From a virus, in the IMG/VR virus record IMGVR_UViG_3300007363_000142, positions 1 to 20,319 of that record: 20,319 bases of DNA; one strand, 5' to 3'. Positions 1,937 through 20,236 of the stretch are shown here, piece after piece (positions within the stretch are counted from its first letter, which is position 1; every line of letters begins with the position of its first letter). The position numbers were made by a program, and so were the translations under genes. The notes under the pieces were generated by a model. That model did not search any database. It was not told where the DNA came from and worked only from the letters and a program-made list of their open reading frames with translations.

Positions 1937-4207
1937 ATGGCTCAACCTGACGAACAGCCTCAGGGCAAACCCTCTGAAAAAGAACCCATCAAACCTCCGA
2001 CTCAAGGAAACGATCAGTCCACCGTGCGTTCTTCCGCTTCGGAGAACTTGCTCGCGGAGCTTTACACGGGATCCGCCGAGAAGACCGTCAAACGCTCGCC
2101 GATGGATTACGAGTCGTTTCAATCTCCGTACAACCCGGACGATCTTTACCGCAAACGCGGCGATTACCGGATCTACGAAGAGATGTGCCAGGACGATCAG
2201 ATCGCGATTTGCCTCGACGTGAAAAAAGATTTAATCCTCGGCGCCGGCTATGAGTTCGTCGCTCAGGAAGAGGGCCAAGAGGAAATCATCGAGAGCCTCG
2301 AGGCCGCCTTCACCGAGAAGATCGAAACGCCGTTCATCGAAGCGTGCGAGGAAATCCTGACCGCGCAAGAGTTCGGGTTTTCCATCTCGGAAAAGACCTT
2401 CGACATCGAGGTTCAGCTCTACATCAAGAGCGTGAAGACGCGGAACCCCAACACCTGGCTCATCTACCAGGACGACGCCGGGAATGTGGAAAAGTACGTT
2501 CAGCGTCAGGTCGGTGGAGATAAAGAAATCCCGCGCGAAGCTCTCGTGCATCTCGTCAACCGTCGACGTTTCCAAAATCCCTACGGACGTAGCGATCTCC
2601 GCGTCGCCTACAATGCGTGGTTCGCGAAACGCCAGGTGATTCGCTTCTACGCCATTTATATGGAGTCCGCGGCGAAACCGATCCCGATTGCCCGGTACGA
2701 TAAGAACGCGCCGGCAACCGCCATCGCCAAGATCTTCGCCGCGCTCAAGAACTTCCAGACGAAGACCGCTCTGACGATCCCGAAAGAGATCGAAGTCGAA
2801 TTCCTGGAAGCGAAAACCACGGGCGACGCCTATATTAAGGCTCTGAATTTCTTCAATATGTGCATCGGGCGCGCGCTTTTCATCCCCGATCTGATGGGCT
2901 TTCAGGGTTCGGAGACCGGCGGCGGTTCGTATGCTCTCGGGAAAGATCAGATCGGAATTGGCGCGATGCATATCACGCGTCGGCGCACCCAGCTCGAGAA
3001 TTTGGTTCAGGATCACTTCGTCAAACCGATCGTTCTCTTCAATTTCGGCGAAGTGAAGAATATCCCGCAGTTCCGCTTTAAATCGATCGACGATGCGAAG
3101 ATGATCGAACTCGCGAAGTCGTGGCTCGAGGCCGTGAAGTCGAAAGTCTGGAAACCGTCCGACGAAGAAGTGAATCACTTCCGCAAATTGGTGAAATTCC
3201 CTGAGGGCGAGGTCGATCGCGAAGCTCCCGTTGCTCTTGGGCCCGATGGCAGGCCGCTTCCTCCCGGCCCCGGTGGTCTTCCTCCGAAACCCGGCGAAGA
3301 GCCGCCTGAGCCCGGTGAAGATGGAGATATGCCTCCGAAACCTGGAGAGGAAAAACCCGCGCCGTCTGGCGAGAAGAAAGCCTTCGCCAAGGTTTATGAT
3401 TTTCCCCCGGGTGACTACCACAAAAAGGTGGACTTCAAGGCGATCGAAACGAAGCTCAACGATTACGACACGTCCGTCACGAACGACGTGGCCCCGGTAA
3501 TTCGTAAACAGCTCACGGCGCTCGCGGATCAGATTAAAGCGAAGAAGATCATTCAGAACGGAGACGTTTCGAAGATCGACCAGCTCGAGATCAAGTACAA
3601 AAAAGAATTGAACCAGGTGATTCGCGCATCGTTCCGCGATCTCTGGAAGGACGCCCAAGGGCAAGCCGCGCAGGAATTATTCAAGTCTGACTTCGCGAAG
3701 AAACCGCTTCCGAACGAGGACTTCATGGGCGTGCTCGAGAACGAGACGTTCAACTACGTCGGCGATTACGAGTACCAACTCCTGAAGCGCACCCGCGCGG
3801 AACTCGTCGCCGGCATCAAAGATGGAAAGCCGATCTCGGCGATCCTCTCCACGCTCGGGGACGATCTTGGGAAGCTCGCGCAAACGTCCGTCGACCGCTA
3901 CGCGCGTACGAAGCACACCGAGGTTATGAATAAGGCCCGGAAAGAGTTCTTCGACAGTTCGGGTGTCGTTACGGGCTACCAGTATTCGGCCATCCTCGAT
4001 GATCGCACGTCGGATATTTGCCGTGGGCTGAACGGGAAGAAGTTCAAAGCCGCGGACGCTCCGATTCCGCCCATGCACTTCAACTGTCGATCGGTTCTCA
4101 TTCCGATCACGAAGTACGAGGAGTTCGAACCTTCGGAAAGCGTCGGGAAGCAGCCCATCGACGACTTCATTGAAGAAAACAAGGGCAGCGGATTTCCGGT
4201 GAAATGA
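1937..4207 (+). CDS. Portal protein fused to MuF-like minor head protein
   Basis: A 756-residue fusion. Residues about 55-425 resemble the DUF935 / Mu gp29 portal family, which forms the dodecameric ring where terminase docks and DNA enters the head (for example YGRSDLRVAYNAWFAKRQ and the SETGGGSYALGKDQ segment). Residues about 435-480 are a proline/glycine/glutamate-rich linker with repeated PPKPGEE-like units. Residues about 485-740 match the Phage_Mu_F minor head domain, with the hallmark YSAILDDRTSD at 683-693, Cys695, and HFNCRS at 714-719. In Mu these two functions are separate genes (gp29, gp30). There is no stop or frameshift between the parts in this sequence. The start ATG at 1937 follows the terminase stop by 26 bases and has GAGAAGAG just upstream. 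Whether the product is cleaved, for example by the downstream prohead protease, is unknown. Confidence 0.9.
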   Translation: MAQPDEQPQGKPSEKEPIKPPTQGNDQSTVRSSASENLLAELYTGSAEKTVKRSPMDYESFQSPYNPDDLYRKRGDYRIYEEMCQDDQIAICLDVKKDLILGAGYEFVAQEEGQEEIIESLEAAFTEKIETPFIEACEEILTAQEFGFSISEKTFDIEVQLYIKSVKTRNPNTWLIYQDDAGNVEKYVQRQVGGDKEIPREALVHLVNRRRFQNPYGRSDLRVAYNAWFAKRQVIRFYAIYMESAAKPIPIARYDKNAPATAIAKIFAALKNFQTKTALTIPKEIEVEFLEAKTTGDAYIKALNFFNMCIGRALFIPDLMGFQGSETGGGSYALGKDQIGIGAMHITRRRTQLENLVQDHFVKPIVLFNFGEVKNIPQFRFKSIDDAKMIELAKSWLEAVKSKVWKPSDEEVNHFRKLVKFPEGEVDREAPVALGPDGRPLPPGPGGLPPKPGEEPPEPGEDGDMPPKPGEEKPAPSGEKKAFAKVYDFPPGDYHKKVDFKAIETKLNDYDTSVTNDVAPVIRKQLTALADQIKAKKIIQNGDVSKIDQLEIKYKKELNQVIRASFRDLWKDAQGQAAQELFKSDFAKKPLPNEDFMGVLENETFNYVGDYEYQLLKRTRAELVAGIKDGKPISAILSTLGDDLGKLAQTSVDRYARTKHTEVMNKARKEFFDSSGVVTGYQYSAILDDRTSDICRGLNGKKFKAADAPIPPMHFNCRSVLIPITKYEEFEPSESVGKQPIDDFIEENKGSGFPVK

Positions 4208-7693: not shown

Positions 7694-8241
7694 TGGCTGA
7701 CGCCAACGATTCGGTCACATTCGAGAGCCGGGAAATCCAGGACTTTCTCGCCAACCTCACGCGTAAAACCAAAGCGATCGCGGACATGCGCAAAGAGTAT
7801 GCAGCGCTGCTTTCAGCGATCGTTTATCGCGACATCATGGACCACTTCGCAAACGAAGAGGGCTCCGGTGGTCCGTGGAAAGGCTGGTCGAAATCTTATT
7901 CCGATGCCGTCGATGGGAAGGTCGCCTTCCGCACGATCAACGGCAAGGTGATGGCCTTCGACAACTCGAGCGGCAATTTTAAAAAGCCTCGCGAGCGCGG
8001 AATGATCCTCCAGAATACCGGGAAGCTGCGCAATTCTTTTACGCCGACGAAGTACAAGGCCGACGGTCAAGGGATCCGCTGGTACAACAACGCGAAAACA
8101 AGTTCGGGTTTTCCGTACGCCTATGCGCACGATACGGGTGGTCCGAAGCTCCCAAAGCGCGACTTCATGTGGCTCTCGGATAAAGCCTTCGACCGCATCG
8201 TCGAGCAGACGCTTCAATTCATGATGGAGAATGGTTTCTAA
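7693..8241 (+). CDS. Tail completion / virion morphogenesis protein, Mu gpG-like
   Basis: Probable head-tail joining protein of the Phage_tail_S (Mu gpG) family, 182 residues. Visible signatures are the tryptophan-rich GGPWKGWSKSY (59-69), the RGMILQNTGKLRNSF segment, equivalent to the family's G-x-x-L-x-x-T-G-x-L-x-x-S motif, the RWYNNAK...PYAYAHDTGG region, equivalent to Y-A-x-x-H-x-x-G, and the closing KRDFMWLSDKAFDRI, equivalent to R-x-F-L-G-L-S. In Mu this protein is needed to connect filled heads and tails. It starts inside the stop of the gp36-like gene (TGATGG), a coupled arrangement. Confidence 0.85.
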   Translation: MADANDSVTFESREIQDFLANLTRKTKAIADMRKEYAALLSAIVYRDIMDHFANEEGSGGPWKGWSKSYSDAVDGKVAFRTINGKVMAFDNSSGNFKKPRERGMILQNTGKLRNSFTPTKYKADGQGIRWYNNAKTSSGFPYAYAHDTGGPKLPKRDFMWLSDKAFDRIVEQTLQFMMENGF

Positions 8242-8752
8242 GATGGGAAATGTGATCGACCTTAACGGCATCAAAGATGAAATCAAGTCGATCCTCGACA
8301 CGTCGAACGTTATCGGCGCGAATCCGGTGGACCTCTCCAACGGAATGACCTCGCGAGTGGCGATGGTCTTCAGCGGTGTGCGCCCAGACCTTATTCCGGT
8401 CCAGGCGTCGAGCTGGCCTTTCGTTACTTCCTACGTCACGCAGAAACCCATTACGGGCGCGGACATTGCGAAGGACCAACTGAATTCTCGCCGGATGGCC
8501 GACGTCACTCTTGAAATCGTGGGCGGTGTCTATAACGATAATTATCAAGGTGACGAAAAGGACCCAGCCGAGCAGGATATTAACTGCCTCATGGAAAACA
8601 TCGAACTCGTGCTGCGGGGAAATCCGAACCTGAACGGGAAAGTCCTTTGGCAAGTGCCGACCGACGTGCAGTATTTCTCACGAAAAGCGTCGGACTCCGA
8701 GGGTCACATCCGGGCGGGCGTGATTACTCTGAAGTGCAAGGTCTCATATTAA
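8231..8752 (+). CDS. Probable tail terminator protein
   Basis: A 173-residue protein in the position of the lambda U / gp37-like tail terminator: after the gpG-like gene and before the tail tube. The sequence looks alpha/beta, starting with GIKDEIKSILDTSNVIGANPV and followed by SSWPFVTSYVTQKPI, DVTLEIVGGVYN and the C-terminal AGVITLKCKVSY, the kind of strand-rich end seen in tail terminators that cap the tube. The first ATG (8231) overlaps the previous gene by 11 bases. ATG at 8243, giving a protein four residues shorter, is equally possible, because the only nearby purine-rich site (GGAGA, 8226-8230) abuts the first and lies 12 bases from the second. Role is from position and general appearance. 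Confidence 0.65.
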   Translation: MVSKMGNVIDLNGIKDEIKSILDTSNVIGANPVDLSNGMTSRVAMVFSGVRPDLIPVQASSWPFVTSYVTQKPITGADIAKDQLNSRRMADVTLEIVGGVYNDNYQGDEKDPAEQDINCLMENIELVLRGNPNLNGKVLWQVPTDVQYFSRKASDSEGHIRAGVITLKCKVSY

Positions 8753-8764
8753 ACGGAGTGAACG

Positions 8765-9748
8765 GTGCGCGACGAACAGGTTTTGGCTCAATCGAAGGCG
8801 GCATACAATCAGTGGGCTCCGCAGTGGCGCGAGCACGCGAAGATTCATGCCGAATTTCCGCAGAAGTCCCTCTCTGATTTTAACTCGACGGGCGTCGGGA
8901 AAGCGGTCCTCGCGATCGCGAACGGTTACTCCCTCGAGGAAAATATCCAGACGATCTTCGAGAATCAGAAGAACGTCGACATCATCTGCTGCGATAAAAC
9001 CCTGGGCCATCTGCTCTCGCACGGGATCACGCCGAAGTTCTGCCTCGTCGCCGACGCGAACGTGTCGTACGAAAAATATCTCAAGCCCTTCGAGAACGAA
9101 CTCGAGGACACGATCCTTTTGATGAACGCCTGCGGAAATCCCGAGTGGACGAAGAACGGGAACTGGAAAGATATTTATTTTTTCGTGAATAAGGACATCC
9201 TCGGGAGCGAAAAAGAGTTCTGTAAAATTTCGGGATGCCCGAACATCATCCCCGCGGGCACGAACGTCTCGAACGCGCTCGTGATTATGCTCTCGCAATC
9301 CGATAACAACGCGCGACAGAATTTCTTCGGTTACGACAAGATCTTGCTGATCGGGTTCGATTACTCGTGGAAATTCAACGGGAAGTATTACGCGTTCGAC
9401 GACGACGGCGGTGGAAAAGCGAACTACATGCGCCACAGCTATCTCGTTTTCCCGACCGGGGAGTTCGGCTACACGTCGGGGAATTTGCAATTTTCCGCGC
9501 AGTGGCTCGAGCAGTACATTCGCGCATTCAATCTCCCGGTGGTGAACTGCGCGAAAGCGACGCTGTTGAACCTTAAGAACTGCGATCTGAAAGAGCAAAT
9601 GCAATACCGTTTCCGCTCCGAGGACTCGAAGATCGCGCGGAACTTGCTCGCGGAATTGAGAAAGATCGACGAATTTAAAAACGAAGTTCAGAAAAAACTC
9701 TCGGAGATCGGGAAATCCCACTGGGATTCTTTCGTCTGCTCCGTTTAA
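8765..9748 (+). CDS. DUF115 / MptE-like (Maf-type) glycosyltransferase-family protein
   Basis: A 327-residue protein of the DUF115 (MptE-like, MAF_flag10) family. Visible landmarks are VLAIANGYSLEENI (48-61, the nucleotide-binding N-G-x-S-L loop), IICCDKTLGHLLSHGITPKF (73-92), LVADANVSY (94-102), PAGTNVSNALVIMLSQ (163-178) and ILLIGFDYSW (193-202), equivalent to the family's I-L-I-G-x-D-L motif. Known members either transfer pseudaminic or legionaminic acid-type sugars to flagellin (Maf) or act on a pterin (archaeal MptE). The size here is close to the bare catalytic domain. It is set between the tail terminator and tail tube genes, with GGAG 6 bases before its GTG start, so it is an integrated member of the operon. 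This is unusual for a morphogenesis cluster. Substrate unknown; tail protein glycosylation is one possibility. Confidence 0.82.
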   Translation: MRDEQVLAQSKAAYNQWAPQWREHAKIHAEFPQKSLSDFNSTGVGKAVLAIANGYSLEENIQTIFENQKNVDIICCDKTLGHLLSHGITPKFCLVADANVSYEKYLKPFENELEDTILLMNACGNPEWTKNGNWKDIYFFVNKDILGSEKEFCKISGCPNIIPAGTNVSNALVIMLSQSDNNARQNFFGYDKILLIGFDYSWKFNGKYYAFDDDGGGKANYMRHSYLVFPTGEFGYTSGNLQFSAQWLEQYIRAFNLPVVNCAKATLLNLKNCDLKEQMQYRFRSEDSKIARNLLAELRKIDEFKNEVQKKLSEIGKSHWDSFVCSV

Positions 9749-9761
9749 GAAGAGGTGAATT

Positions 9762-10808
9762 ATGGGTGTCGGACAAGGATCTTTGATCGGAAATCTTTCG
9801 TACCACGCTTTCGGGCGGGAGCTTTCCTACGGCTCGTACAATACCTGCACGGCGGGACTCAACGTCCTTTCGTCGTCGATGAAGGTTGCTCAGGAGACGA
9901 AAGTTCTTGAGGAAATTCAGACCTCGCGCACGAACTCGAACGCGCTCGCGCTCTCGAAAATGGTCGAGGGCGACATGGAATTCTATTTTTCCCCTCGCGC
10001 TTTGGCGGCGAACTATTTGCTGCAGAATGCCTTCGGCGGCGGTCCCGTGACGTCGGCGACGGCGACGGGAGAAACGGCGGGCGGTGCCGGATTCACCCAC
10101 ACCGTGAACATTCAGAACTTCGATCAGACGTATTCCTCGCTCTGCTTGAACGTCCGTAAGGGTGACTCGACGAGCGGGAAAGTCTTCCAGTACGACGGCA
10201 TCCGCGTGAACGAATTCACGTTCTCGGCGGAAATCGACGAAGCTCTGAAATGCACCGCGAGCCTGATCGGTCGCGACGCGACGGTCGGCGGAACGGACGT
10301 CGCCGGCGTGCTCTCGACGGGTGCGCAACAGCCCCTGAGCTTCGTCAACGGTCGCTTCTCGGTGGAAGGTTCGGTCGGTTCGCTGACCTCGACCTCGTAC
10401 TGGAACGTCCAGAACATAGAGTTCAAGATCTCGAACAACCTCATGTCGGATTCGGGATCTCGCCGAATCGGGACGAACGTTCTCCAAGTTCTGCCGGCGG
10501 GGATGGCGGTCTTCGAATTGAAGGTCACGGTCCGCTTCGACACGACGACCGCGTACGATGCAATGCTCGCGCAGACGCAGTTCGCGGCGGAGTTCGAGTT
10601 CCTCGGCGCGACGATGGCGACTTCGAAAATTCGCGAGGGCATCAAGATCGTTTTGCCCGCGGTGAAAATTCTCGACTCCGGCGATCCCGAGATCGGTGGA
10701 CCGAACGAGCTGCTCACCTCGGAAATCACGTTCGTCGTGCTCCGAGACCTCAACGCCGGGTACGCGTGCCGCGCACTCGTGACGAACGATACGGCGTCGT
10801 ATGCTTAA
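9762..10808 (+). CDS. Tail tube protein
   Basis: Major tail subunit that polymerises into the tube, 348 residues. Diagnostic pattern: LSYHAFGRELSYGSYNTC with a conserved G-x-E-x-x-Y-G-T-like N-terminus, LEEIQTSRTNSNALALSK, VEGDMEFYFSPRALAANYLL (the family's G-x-x-x-x-x-x-x-P x x L... strand), then strand-rich segments such as KVFQYDGIRVNEFTFSAEID and NVQNIEFKISNNL, and a C-terminal EITFVVLRDLNAGY. It follows terminator and DUF115 genes and precedes the tail chaperone, the standard place. The site AGAGGTG before the ATG is strong, as expected for an abundant virion protein. It is longer than many tube proteins, which leaves room for an additional exposed domain. Confidence 0.82.
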   Translation: MGVGQGSLIGNLSYHAFGRELSYGSYNTCTAGLNVLSSSMKVAQETKVLEEIQTSRTNSNALALSKMVEGDMEFYFSPRALAANYLLQNAFGGGPVTSATATGETAGGAGFTHTVNIQNFDQTYSSLCLNVRKGDSTSGKVFQYDGIRVNEFTFSAEIDEALKCTASLIGRDATVGGTDVAGVLSTGAQQPLSFVNGRFSVEGSVGSLTSTSYWNVQNIEFKISNNLMSDSGSRRIGTNVLQVLPAGMAVFELKVTVRFDTTTAYDAMLAQTQFAAEFEFLGATMATSKIREGIKIVLPAVKILDSGDPEIGGPNELLTSEITFVVLRDLNAGYACRALVTNDTASYA

Positions 10809-16191: not shown

Positions 16192-17061
16192 ATGCCTTCC
16201 TCCGCAACGATCACTTCTTTCTATTCGTTCGTCGCTGGAACGAAAGCGCGCGCGACTCAAGTTAATACGAACTTCTCGCAGCTTCGTGGTCACATCATCG
16301 CGATCGACCCGAATACGGCGGCGGCTGCGCCGACGAACACCTACGACCTTGGCTCCGAGGAATATTACTGGCGCTCTCTTTACGCGAAGCGCATTCAACT
16401 TCTTTCGTCCACATCTACGGGATCGACGCTCGAAATCCGTGGAGATACGGCGACGGCAGGTGGCGCTTTCAATTTCAATATTCAAGGAACGACTCGCGCG
16501 GTGATCGGAACGAGCGGGATCGACGGGGCGTATATCAAAACGCAGTCGATCAGCGTGACGGCGCGGTCTCTCGCGGGGATTACTTCTGCTGCCGCCGCCG
16601 GTCAGATGGGACAAGCTGATTTCGCGGTCGGTCCCTATTTGATGTCCACTTCTTCGATTTTGTTCGGGTCCGATGTTCCTGGATCGACGCTGACGATCGA
16701 CACCGTTGGGCGACCTGTTCTCTTGTGCCTGACTGGTGCGACCGCCGCGAGCCAGGTCACGTTCGCCTACAAATCTTTGACCTCGATTGCAGTTCGGGTC
16801 GGTGGGAGCTTGAACATCGTTCGCGATGGGGTCACGGTCGGTCAGGTTCAGTTTGGCGTGCAGCAATTCAACTTCACGACCACCGCGATTAACGTCTCCG
16901 CCGCGACGGGTGCCGCGCTTTTGATTTTCCCCATGCAGTTCACCGTGATCGACGTACCGGCAGCGGGAAATCACAAATATTACGCATACCTCGGGATCAA
17001 CGGTCAGGACAGCGGGACGTATTTCAATCTGACTGGCCGACTGCAAGCGATCGAACTTTGA
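16192..17061 (+). CDS. Tail fibre / receptor-binding protein B, shared anchor
   Basis: A 289-residue paralogue of the preceding protein in its first 62 residues (ITSFYSF, VNTNFSQLRGH, ID P..., TYDLG, then Trp-Arg), but with a different C-terminus. After the anchor there is a Ser/Thr/Gly-rich shaft (STSTGSTLEIRGDTATAGG), then a compact beta-rich domain from about residue 115 containing ARSLAGITSAAAAGQMGQAD, VTFAYKSLTSIAVRVGGSLN and FPMQFTVIDVPAAGNHKYYA, which has the alternation expected of a jelly-roll trimeric tip. It starts directly after the stop of gene A, so the two are co-translated and may occupy alternative or stacked sites on the same tail hub. Receptor unknown. Confidence 0.7.
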   Translation: MPSSATITSFYSFVAGTKARATQVNTNFSQLRGHIIAIDPNTAAAAPTNTYDLGSEEYYWRSLYAKRIQLLSSTSTGSTLEIRGDTATAGGAFNFNIQGTTRAVIGTSGIDGAYIKTQSISVTARSLAGITSAAAAGQMGQADFAVGPYLMSTSSILFGSDVPGSTLTIDTVGRPVLLCLTGATAASQVTFAYKSLTSIAVRVGGSLNIVRDGVTVGQVQFGVQQFNFTTTAINVSAATGAALLIFPMQFTVIDVPAAGNHKYYAYLGINGQDSGTYFNLTGRLQAIEL

Positions 17062-17099
17062 TCTCTCGTCTGACCTTGACTTCGGCGGCGCGGGCCGCT

Positions 17100-17103
17100 G
17101 GAG
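17100..17103 (+). promoter_or_regulatory. Shine-Dalgarno site deciding the radical SAM start
   Basis: GGAG with 8 bases to ATG 17112. No comparable site precedes the earlier in-frame TTG at 17058, so the shorter protein is preferred. Confidence 0.5.
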
Positions 17104-17111
17104 TTGAGGAA

Positions 17112-18056
17112 ATGCTGAATTATTTAAAGTACCGCCTGAAGTATCGCTTCGCGCGTTCGCTCGACCTTACGGTTCCGGTGGACGTTTCCCTCGAACTCGC
17201 ATCACTCTGCAATCAGCGGTGCGGGTACTGCTACCACGCAAATCAAGAAACACTCCCGTTTCGAAAAGGAATGATGCCGCTCGAGACGGCGTACAAAATC
17301 ATTGGTCAGGCGGCGGACCTCGGAGTTCACTCGCTGAAGTTCAACTGGAAGGGCGAGAGCACGCTCAACCCGAACTTCGAAAAGATCACCGAATACGCGA
17401 AAAACCTCGCGCGTGGTGGAACCTTCATCGACCGCCTCACAAACTCGAACTTCAAATTCTCCACAGATCGCGAAGATATTTTTCGAGGGCTCTGCCACCA
17501 GACGAAGGTAAAGGTCTCGTTCGATTCTTTCATTCCCGAAGTCATGGAAACCCAACGAGCGGGCTCGATTCATTCCCTCGCGATGAGGAACATCGACTAC
17601 TTTTACAATCACCCAAAGAGATCGAAGACCGAGATCGTCATCCAAGCCGTTCGCACGAAACGCAATTCCGACGAGGACATCGAGGGCCAAGTTCTGCGGA
17701 GATGGCCCGAAGCCGCGGTTTCGATTCGGGATATGGTCGGCGGTCGAATCGAGAAAGATCTTTCCGACGTGACGACGCGGACGCGCGACGCGGAAAACCG
17801 TCAGTCATGCATCCAGGCTCACGCGAGGGTTATCTTCAACTGGAAGGGCGAAGCGTTCCCGTGCTGCCCGGACATCGGAGAAAAACTTCTTCTGGGTGAC
17901 ATTAATTACGCGAACCTGGACCAAATTTTTAACGACGTTCCAGCACTTCGACTGCGCGATTCTTTGCGCGACGGGACCGCTTTCGACAAAAACCCTTGCA
18001 AATCTTGCCCGTCATTTGAAAGCTATCGGGGGTTTAAGCCGTCATGGAATTCGTAA
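17112..18056 (+). CDS. Radical SAM / SPASM domain enzyme
   Basis: Iron-sulphur enzyme expected to cleave S-adenosylmethionine to a radical. With the ATG at 17112 it has 314 residues; LCNQRCGYCYH places the three [4Fe-4S] cysteines as C-x3-C-x2-C at 33, 37 and 40. The FNWKGESTLNPN segment (77-88) is the usual G-E-x-x-x-x-P SAM-binding motif. The C-terminal part is a SPASM-type auxiliary cluster domain with cysteines at 233, 251, 252, 296 and 299 (SCIQAHARVIFNWKGEAFPC, then NPCKSCPSF). SPASM enzymes modify peptides or act on sugars and other substrates; the substrate is not evident. GGAG at 17100-17103 sits 8 bases before ATG 17112. A TTG at 17058 overlapping the previous stop would add 18 residues but lacks a binding site. 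Located between tail fibre and glycosyltransferase genes. Confidence 0.88.
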   Translation: MLNYLKYRLKYRFARSLDLTVPVDVSLELASLCNQRCGYCYHANQETLPFRKGMMPLETAYKIIGQAADLGVHSLKFNWKGESTLNPNFEKITEYAKNLARGGTFIDRLTNSNFKFSTDREDIFRGLCHQTKVKVSFDSFIPEVMETQRAGSIHSLAMRNIDYFYNHPKRSKTEIVIQAVRTKRNSDEDIEGQVLRRWPEAAVSIRDMVGGRIEKDLSDVTTRTRDAENRQSCIQAHARVIFNWKGEAFPCCPDIGEKLLLGDINYANLDQIFNDVPALRLRDSLRDGTAFDKNPCKSCPSFESYRGFKPSWNS

Positions 18057-18505
18057 ACCTTAGAGAACGAGCATATTCGCATTACTACAATCAGGTGGTT
18101 CGATGCCGGACACGGAAGACATATCGTGGCATCAAAGTCAGATATAGTTTTATTGATTTTTTAGATTGGTTTTTAAAGAATCTCCCATCGTTCAAGGGAG
18201 ACCGTCTTGTAATCGGTAGAATCGACCATTCTAAAGATTATGAATTTGGTAATATTCGAATGCAGGATTTCTCAGAAAATTCTAGAGAGACGTGGCAAAG
18301 ACTCGGAAATCCTTCAAGTATAAAAGCAAAAGAAATCATTTGTTTCGACACTGAAACTGGGGAAGTAAAATTTATTGCGAAGACTATCTCCCAAGCATCA
18401 TATCTTTCTGGCGTTAGTCGTTCTACGGTACAATACCGCTGTAAATATCTTGATGGAACTCGACCTCTTAAACTGAATACAAGGATCTCTTTCTTCTATT
18501 CTTGA
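18044..18505 (+). CDS. Free-standing HNH-type homing endonuclease
   Basis: A 153-residue protein. Residues about 28-83 match the HNH nuclease pattern common in phage mobile genes: YRGIKVRYSFIDFLDWF, then IGRIDHSKDYEFGNIRM, then FSENSRE, corresponding to the L-D-R-I-D-N-x-x-x-Y-x-x-x-N-x-R-x-x-x-x-x-x-N layout. Residues about 96-134 resemble a NUMOD1-type DNA-binding tail (IICFDTETGEVKFIAKTISQ, then SGVSRSTVQYRCK). Such enzymes nick or cut specific sites and spread their own gene. Base composition is very different from its neighbours: 15 of 60 G+C at 18121-18180, against 35 of 60 at 17641-17700. The start overlaps the radical SAM stop by 13 bases. Some expected catalytic residues are not clearly identifiable, so activity is uncertain. 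Confidence 0.75.
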   Translation: MEFVNLRERAYSHYYNQVVRCRTRKTYRGIKVRYSFIDFLDWFLKNLPSFKGDRLVIGRIDHSKDYEFGNIRMQDFSENSRETWQRLGNPSSIKAKEIICFDTETGEVKFIAKTISQASYLSGVSRSTVQYRCKYLDGTRPLKLNTRISFFYS

Positions 18506-18570
18506 CCGACGCTTTGAAATGAGAAGACCATATAGCAACATACCCATTTTGGTTAAAGCAGGCAGGGTTG
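18506..18570 (+). other. AT-rich spacer downstream of the homing endonuclease
   Basis: A 65-base gap between the endonuclease stop and the nucleotidyltransferase start, one of the few non-overlapping joins in the window. It grades from AT-rich to normal composition. It contains AGGG at 18564-18567, a mediocre ribosome binding site 3 bases before ATG 18571. No convincing promoter, terminator or direct repeat is visible. Confidence 0.4.
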
Positions 18571-19887
18571 ATGAAAAAAATCGGCGTCGTCATTTGCACT
18601 CGGATCGAATCTGAGCGCGTCCCAAATAAACCACTTCGTTTGGTTAACGGAATCCCACTGATTCAACACCTCGTTCGACGCCTTCTTCGGCTCGGGGTTC
18701 CGATCATTCTCGCCGTACCGGACGATCAGAAAAAGCACTACTCGTTCCTCGAGCAGTACAACGTCAAGGTTGCGGAGCTTGGATACGCCAATGATCCTCT
18801 CTCTCGGATGCGCTTCGCCGCGCACACGTTCGGGCTCGATGCTGTTATCCGAATCACGCACGATAAAATTCTCGTCGAAGAGGAAGATGTCTTTCATGCG
18901 ATCGACGCTTTCCATCGAAAAAATTTAGATTACCTTTACGGATCAAAATTTATTCCCGGAGCCGGATTCGAAATCATTTCTCGCGCGGCTTTGGACACCG
19001 CCGCCGATGCTTACAAGAACGTGGAGTTCATCAGCTATGCTGTCCGCAACATCACGAAGAACTCATACGATTTCGACCCGCATCACCCGATTGGTCACTT
19101 CCGTTTCCTTATCGACTTCCCTGAGGATCTCGAACTTTTCGAGGTCCTTTTCTCGCAACTTGGAAACGATGCGACGCTCAAGCAATGCGTCGAGTATCTC
19201 CGTGCAAATCCCTGGCTCAAGCGACAGAACGAGCAGCCTAAACTTACGGTCTATACTTGCGCCTATAATGCCGACCGATGGATTTTGCGAGCGCTGCAAT
19301 CCGTACGCGAGCAGGTGGGTTACTCGAAAGTCGAGCATCTGGTGGTCGACGACCACTCGAACGACAAGACGTTAGAAATTGTTTCGAGCTTCTGCCTCGA
19401 GAATCCGAACGCGAGATGGATCCGCAACTCGAAGAACGTCGGTCTCGCGTCGTCGTCGAACGTCGCGCTCAAGGCCGCTCGTGGGAAGTACATCCTTCGT
19501 CTCGACGCGGACGATTACCTGATTTCGAAACACGCTCTGCGTGAACTGATTTACGAGATCGAGCACACCGGCAAGGAAGCGATCTACCCGAACAATTATT
19601 TCGGCAGCCGTTCGGTGATTCAAAGCGGGAAGGACCAGCACCATGTCGGCGGAGCGATCTTCGACAAGAGGGCGATCAATCACGTTAAGTTCACCGAAGG
19701 GCTCCGAGGATATGAAGGTCTGGATTTCTTCCTTCGTGCGCGGGACCAACTGGACGTCGGTTATCTCAATAAGCCTCTCTTCTTTTACACCCAGCGAGAA
19801 GGAAGTCTTTCTCGAACGGATGTTGAAGGCCGTGCAAAAATTAAACAGCAGATCATGAGGGAGAACGGCGTTGGCGCGACAGAATGA
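18571..19887 (+). CDS. SpsF-like nucleotidyltransferase fused to family 2 glycosyltransferase
   Basis: A 438-residue, two-domain enzyme. Residues about 1-215 match the SpsF / CMP-sugar cytidylyltransferase family: VVICTRIESERVPNKPL (6-22, the R-x-x-S-x-R-x-P-x-K-x-L nucleotide loop), RITHDKIL (94-101) and FLIDFPEDLELF (179-190, equivalent to V-D-x-P-E-D-L-E). Residues about 225-420 are a GT-A family 2 glycosyltransferase: VYTCAYNADRWI (227-238), LVVDDHSNDKT (257-267), KNVGLASSSN (288-297), LDADDYL (311-317, with the metal-binding DxD), then GYEGLDFFLRA (380-390) as the acceptor/base region. The design suggests that one protein activates a sugar and transfers it. ATG 18571 is chosen over the adjacent TTG at 18568. 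Composition is like the virion genes, not like the AT-rich endonuclease. Sugar and acceptor are unknown. Confidence 0.85.
   Translation: MKKIGVVICTRIESERVPNKPLRLVNGIPLIQHLVRRLLRLGVPIILAVPDDQKKHYSFLEQYNVKVAELGYANDPLSRMRFAAHTFGLDAVIRITHDKILVEEEDVFHAIDAFHRKNLDYLYGSKFIPGAGFEIISRAALDTAADAYKNVEFISYAVRNITKNSYDFDPHHPIGHFRFLIDFPEDLELFEVLFSQLGNDATLKQCVEYLRANPWLKRQNEQPKLTVYTCAYNADRWILRALQSVREQVGYSKVEHLVVDDHSNDKTLEIVSSFCLENPNARWIRNSKNVGLASSSNVALKAARGKYILRLDADDYLISKHALRELIYEIEHTGKEAIYPNNYFGSRSVIQSGKDQHHVGGAIFDKRAINHVKFTEGLRGYEGLDFFLRARDQLDVGYLNKPLFFYTQREGSLSRTDVEGRAKIKQQIMRENGVGATE
19858..19863 (+). promoter_or_regulatory. Shine-Dalgarno site supporting the TTG start at 19871
   Basis: AGGGAG, 7 bases before TTG 19871, lies inside the end of the glycosyltransferase gene. 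It is the main reason for accepting the unusual start codon of the small downstream gene. Confidence 0.5.
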
Positions 19888-20236
19888 AGCGATCGACCTT
19901 CTTCGGCTTTACTCACGCGGGGACACCGCCGGCTGGAATGAACTCCTGAATGTTCACGTCCGCGATCAGAACATCAACGGTCTGGCTCGTTTGCGGTATT
20001 CCGTGCAGGCGGGGATGGACGACCTCGCGAAAAAGAAATTAGCAACCGAACCGATTCAGATTTGGTACTGCCGCCTCATCAAATCCATCGAAAATTCCGC
20101 GCGCGCAATTCTGCGCCGACGCCATCCCATGCCCCACGATAATCCACTCACCCGCGTTACGGACCCTCGCGCCATCGAAGCGAAGAAGAAACGTGACACC
20201 GAGTTCAGCAAGTTCTTAATTAGAAGCTCATACTAG
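19871..20236 (+). CDS. Small unknown protein with TTG start
   Basis: A 121-residue product I do not recognise. It is mostly helical and basic, with LLRLYSRGDTAGWNELLNV near the start, DDLAKKKLATEPIQIWYCRL in the middle and a basic C-terminus containing RRRHPMPHDNPLTRVTDPRA. It starts at TTG 19871, overlapping the glycosyltransferase gene by 17 bases. AGGGAG at 19858-19863, 7 bases upstream, supports this rare start. The overlap suggests translation coupled to the glycosyltransferase. It has no visible signal peptide, membrane segment or metal-binding cluster. Function not assigned. Confidence 0.65.
   Translation: MARQNEAIDLLRLYSRGDTAGWNELLNVHVRDQNINGLARLRYSVQAGMDDLAKKKLATEPIQIWYCRLIKSIENSARAILRRRHPMPHDNPLTRVTDPRAIEAKKKRDTEFSKFLIRSSY

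Follow-up and report, generated by a model that had tools for sequence, protein, structure and literature searches.

We find that g11 (positions 8765 to 9748, plus strand) is a core, obligate tail gene of its phage clade and that it encodes a protein of the PF01973 (DUF115/MptE-like) family, predicted to be a single-domain protein with the Maf fold. Putative genes for making a CMP-activated, sialic-acid-like sugar co-occur with g11 homologues in this clade. On balance, we lean toward the reading that the phage makes a CMP-activated 3-deoxy-ulosonate and that g11, a putative CMP-ulosonate transferase, puts this sugar on a protein of the virion, the tail tube being the likeliest. The window, i.e., the whole 20,319-base virus record that was analyzed, is probably a fragment, since the long relatives run to 37 to 48 kb.

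Family and predicted fold of g11

The g11 open reading frame encodes 327 aa from a GTG start, and a GGAG ribosome-binding site (8755 to 8758, plus strand) ends 6 nt ahead of it, in agreement with the preliminary description, which had credited the gene with a ribosome-binding site of its own. The protein had also been placed in the DUF115 family, and this was borne out by a PF01973 (MptE-like) match far over the gathering cutoff (60.9 bits versus 34.6; E 1.8e-16). The four motifs that had been named, NGYSLEENI, HGITPKF, GTNVSNA, and ILLIGFDYSW, all fall within conserved blocks of a 47-member g11 alignment. PF01973 was found above cutoff in 35 of 35 long relatives as well, with a single match per record, and no family was found for g11 in PHROGs. 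Orthologues in viral databases (55% identity, uncultured Caudovirales phage) are named "MptE-like."

The structure of g11 was predicted with AlphaFold2 from the 47-sequence alignment (pLDDT 95.2, pTM 0.90) and compared with solved structures, Maf and MptE among them, as had been proposed. The best match was the Maf glycosyltransferase of Magnetospirillum (5mu5; Z 21.9, rmsd 2.8, 235 residues), with residues 11 to 282 of the model aligned on Maf 238 to 513, and Foldseek gave an E value of 1.7e-10 for the same pair. Archaeal MptE (8sd5) came second, with a Z of 15.8, and GT29/GT42 sialyltransferases, including human ST8SiaIII and CstII, came third (Z 8 to 10). The model thus has the Rossmann-like glycosyltransferase/HPPK fold of its two closest matches. 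A search of solved structures with the 47-member profile also ranked Maf first (E 4.7e-5, versus 0.39 for MptE), as did a more diverse g11 profile (6.7e-6 versus 0.015).

The GxG/S loop and the GI.P and GxD motifs are common to g11 and Maf. The Asp-rich DLDGD of MptE is a metal-binding motif; in the phage proteins, D-A-N-V aligns with the MptE segment DLDGDLE, and the first Asp alone is retained. The fold ranking and this Asp motif together argue that g11, as modeled, is a Maf-fold protein and not an MptE. The Maf-like identity suggested earlier held for the fold but not for a full Maf: of the three-domain architecture (N-terminal, central PF01973, and C-terminal helical), the N-terminal domain is absent, as 327 aa leave no room for it. 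Beyond the Maf-aligned part, which ends at residue 282, the model has a long C-terminal helix (287 to 326). Across 54 diverse rows, g11 conservation peaked along the C-terminal edge of its beta strands, where this type of fold usually holds its ligand (mean top-residue frequency 0.79 versus 0.63, p 1.3e-5).

g11 within the tail module

IMG/VR was searched with a DUF115 anchor and, independently, with a tube anchor; the loci were read by tblastn and profiles and collapsed to distinct sequences before counting. The order putative tail terminator, DUF115, tail tube was complete in 101 distinct clade loci, with no exception. Six further loci were cut by contig ends (five with DUF115 and tube but with no terminator on the contig, and one with the tube off the contig), and five tubes without DUF115 all start near a contig end. 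None of the clade loci covering the place lacked the DUF115 gene, so that the survey of related phages proposed in the preliminary description found it beside the tail tube throughout. In 19 outgroup loci, from distant phages with the same tube family, DUF115 was absent. Since the tube-anchored searches do not depend on DUF115 and still recover a g11 homologue at every covering clade locus, g11 as cargo or as a chance insertion was rejected.

Ranked by median identity to the window, g11 comes first of the well-sampled head-tail genes (54.3%), followed by the tube (53.3%), the major capsid protein (49.3%), and the terminator (41.1%). Three deep groups, of 8, 6, and 21 records, are common to the DUF115 and tube trees, which fits joint inheritance.

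Upstream, g10 (8231 to 8752, plus strand; 173 aa) directly precedes g11 in all relatives covering the place, and family searches with it gave no convincing match. Downstream, g12 (9762 to 10808, plus strand) matches PF18906 at 99 bits in Pfam, and its model (pLDDT 86) resembles the tail tube of P74-26 (Z 30.1, rmsd 2.7, 312 residues) and that of T5 (Z 24.5). Of the two neighbors first proposed for g11, the tail tube is thus upheld by family and fold, and the tail terminator stands by position only. The Ser/Thr content of the tubes was 21.1% in the clade versus 18.6% in the outgroup, with 18.7% in g12 itself, a comparison in which relatedness is not controlled and which was not used as evidence.

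Two features of gene layout were also seen. In one distant group (loci L151 to L170, L191, and L240 to L249), the gap between the DUF115 stop and the tube frame is about 160 to 280 nt, compared to 5 to 47 nt in the near clade, and a promoter or a small gene might lie inside it. In the window, a single 756-aa protein (positions 1937 to 4207) joins a portal protein to a MuF-like head morphogenesis domain.

Neither g11 nor a distant homologue nor the tube matched any isolate phage in the collection searched. A search of genomes for hosts or prophages found none with the near profile, and with the distant profile only two contigs, in MAGs. The tail module was seen on contigs L224 and L225, which were assigned to MAGs of Phycisphaerae and of Pricia; these are possible hosts, or the phage contigs may be misbinned.

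The sugar cassette and its co-occurrence with g11

In the window, the sugar cassette lies away from g11, downstream of the tail fiber-like genes g17 and g18, and comprises g19, g21, and g22, after which the contig ends. Its first gene, g19 (17058 to 18056, plus strand), encodes a radical SAM/SPASM protein by Pfam and has counterparts in the cassettes of 19 of 20 relatives. The 439-aa g21 product (18568 to 19887, plus strand) is a CTP_transf_3 CMP-sugar cytidylyltransferase (PF02348, 44.7 bits) fused to a GT2 domain (PF00535, 96.4 bits). A conserved 121-aa protein, g22 (19871 to 20236, plus strand), comes after the CTP-GT2 gene in 18 of the 20 cassettes, and family searches with it gave no match. 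Lying between g19 and g21, a 153-aa protein (18044 to 18505) that looks HNH/NUMOD-like by eye has a homologue in only 1 of the 20 relatives (L131) and is therefore probably a mobile insertion.

The relatives' cassettes continue past g22 with a NeuB- or DAHP synthase (DAHPS)-like gene and then a methyltransferase gene with TPR repeats; in this phage, both would lie beyond the contig end of the window. Eight of the 20 cassettes that were read hold only a DAHPS-like gene, eight only a NeuB-like gene, and two hold both, such that every uncut cassette (18) has at least one of these synthases; the other two (L131 and L143) are cut by the contig end, and their records do contain a DAHP_synth_1 match. 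No upstream sugar-precursor genes were identified.

Proteins from three relatives matched PF03102 (NeuB) at 47 to 118 bits (cutoff 22.1). The NeuB-like proteins, at 240 to 254 aa, have no room for the SAF domain found at the C terminus of full-length NeuB, and that of L144 is without its N-terminal part. The DAHPS-like proteins remain under the NCBIfam cutoffs for DAHP synthase (272.7 versus 335 bits and 245.5 versus 267.75), and PF00793 matched a DAHPS-like cassette protein at 155 bits. In one DAHPS-like protein (L132, 1995 to 2813) and nine homologues, FRAGTYP/F replaces FKPRTSP, with RAGT invariant in 10 of 10; given RAGT in place of KPRT, these proteins probably act on a different sugar from the one used in the aromatic pathway. 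Both synthase types, NeuB and DAHP synthase, turn PEP and a sugar into a 3-deoxy-2-ulosonate, the type of acid that CTP_transf_3 enzymes such as KdsB, NeuA, and SpsF activate with CTP.

Genomic data on a CMP-nonulosonate donor came from the 35 long clade records. CTP_transf_3, fused to GT2, was present in 32 and a PEP-dependent ulosonate-type synthase in 33 (DAHPS-type in 22, NeuB-type in 13, and both in 2, leaving out of the count NeuB matches that merely re-detected the DAHPS-type gene). The records without one or both of these enzymes (G018, G029, and G031) are 27 to 35 kb long. In the outgroup, which has a distant tube and no DUF115, none of the four families was found in any of 11 records, only six of which exceed 28 kb. 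Fisher p values overstate this co-occurrence, because some of it reflects a single event at the level of the clade. The pathway genes of distant members can be remote both from the tail genes and from one another (e.g., in G032), so the association goes beyond adjacency. At least 10 switches of synthase type are needed on the DUF115 tree, at least 5 of them forced by strong branches, and at least 13 on the tube tree; the sugar-making step is exchanged and the transferase is retained. Strict synteny, an obligate gene, and the co-occurring pair of synthase and CMP-sugar synthetase together support the link to sugar transfer initially suggested for g11.

Possible sugar transfer to the tail and known systems

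In the reading that we favor, a NeuB-like or DAHP synthase-like enzyme would make a 3-deoxy-2-ulosonic acid from PEP and a sugar, the cytidylyltransferase half of g21 would activate it with CTP, and g11 would take the ulosonate from CMP and attach it to Ser/Thr of a virion protein while the tail subunits are made. Here, families and fold are what point to the donor and to the catalysis of g11, and position only to the acceptor; the timing, too, is inferred. Extension or modification of the glycan would fall to the GT2 half of g21, to the radical SAM protein g19, and to a methyltransferase. We know of no GT2 enzymes that use CMP-ulosonates, so the pathway would need a dedicated transferase, and g11 is the sole Maf/sialyltransferase-like protein found in these records, of whose proteins only part were folded. 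A clostridial Maf takes Neu5Ac and KDO as well as its own sugar (PMC11339370), and one transferase could therefore accept different ulosonates. Maf acts on flagellin before export (PMC4065374); by this analogy and by gene position, the tube protein g12, encoded directly downstream of g11 and translated next, would be the simplest and most likely acceptor. The preliminary description had put forward tail tube or tip subunits as possible acceptors.

Since the cassette adjoins tail fiber-like genes and its parts are scattered in distant members, the target could instead be fibers or a host glycan. g11 would then be a CMP-ulosonate transferase for a host glycan, a host surface protein, or the tail fiber rather than the tube or tail shaft, and its place in the tail operon would provide late expression only. 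The GT2 domain of g21, which resembles O-antigen conversion enzymes, and the sialyltransferases acting on glycans among the fold relatives are consistent with such a target. However, host-modifying cargo genes come and go, whereas g11 keeps its strict terminator-tube location in a very diverse clade, with conservation at the level of the tube, and we consider a host or fiber acceptor unlikely.

It is more doubtful still that g11 is a former glycosyltransferase fold that now works in tail assembly, or sits in the virion as a minor component, and transfers no sugar. The obligate place between terminator and tube and the long helix outside the Maf-aligned part would suit this role, but conservation in g11 is highest among the residues at the strand edge, and the CMP-sugar pathway is present in 32 of 35 clade records versus 0 of 11 in the outgroup. 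We regard a function of g11 as 6-hydroxymethylpterin diphosphokinase as highly improbable, despite the Pfam name and the annotation of orthologous phage proteins as such in a viral structure library. Although MptE is second by fold, Maf is first by fold, profile, and single-sequence search, all but the first Asp of the metal-binding motif is lost, and no folate link was seen in the gene neighborhood; the pterin function was rejected on the fold ranking and the missing Asp motif.

Returning to transfer onto the tube, we tentatively put forward a broader proposal, which may well be too broad: that the whole clade of tailed phages, as yet uncultivated, needs a sialic-acid-like modification of the tail tube, with a dedicated single-domain Maf-like transferase as a core gene and its own CMP-ulosonate, the sugar being swapped by exchange of NeuB-like and DAHPS-like synthases and the transfer step never being lost. 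Tail tubes and flagella would then be two parallel cases in which one enzyme fold decorates a helical filament. If this is true, sugar modification is a built-in, apparently essential step of tail building and not an optional shield, Maf-type glycosylation extends from flagella to virus tails, the phages carry a sialic-acid-like pathway with an exchangeable sugar, and phage database proteins labeled "MptE-like" gain a concrete function. A search of a literature library found no paper on MptE-like or nonulosonate genes in phage tails, nor on the g11 arrangement. Virion glycosylation is already known, and the Maf-fold enzyme class and the core tail position are probably what is new.

According to PMC12363180, which cites Freeman 2023, mycobacteriophages glycosylate capsid and tail tube proteins with phage-encoded glycosyltransferases. 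These phages provide a precedent for virion modification. To our knowledge, they use different glycosyltransferase families, encoded by variable genes and not by a core tail gene, and have no CMP-ulosonate pathway. Archaeal MptE, a 6-hydroxymethyl-7,8-dihydropterin diphosphokinase, belongs to the same Pfam family and fold as g11, but its DLDGD is not kept and g11 has no pterin context. The GT42/GT29 sialyltransferases CstII and ST8SiaIII are related in fold and use CMP-sialic acid, but they are distant (9 to 20% identity) and act on glycans. We take GFDYSW..YYAFD of g11 to resemble a CstII motif; a CstII sequence motif search gave no match, and a search of the 35 records for GT42 (PF06002) was uninformative, as it gave no match but the positive controls were equally silent. 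Compared to Maf, g11 is a single-domain protein in a phage tail operon, its sequence similarity is weak, and the acceptor candidate beside it is a tail tube and not flagellin. Nevertheless, its predicted fold is that of the Maf central domain over 235 residues, and g11, too, adjoins the gene for a tubular subunit, with CMP-ulosonate pathway genes in the same genome.
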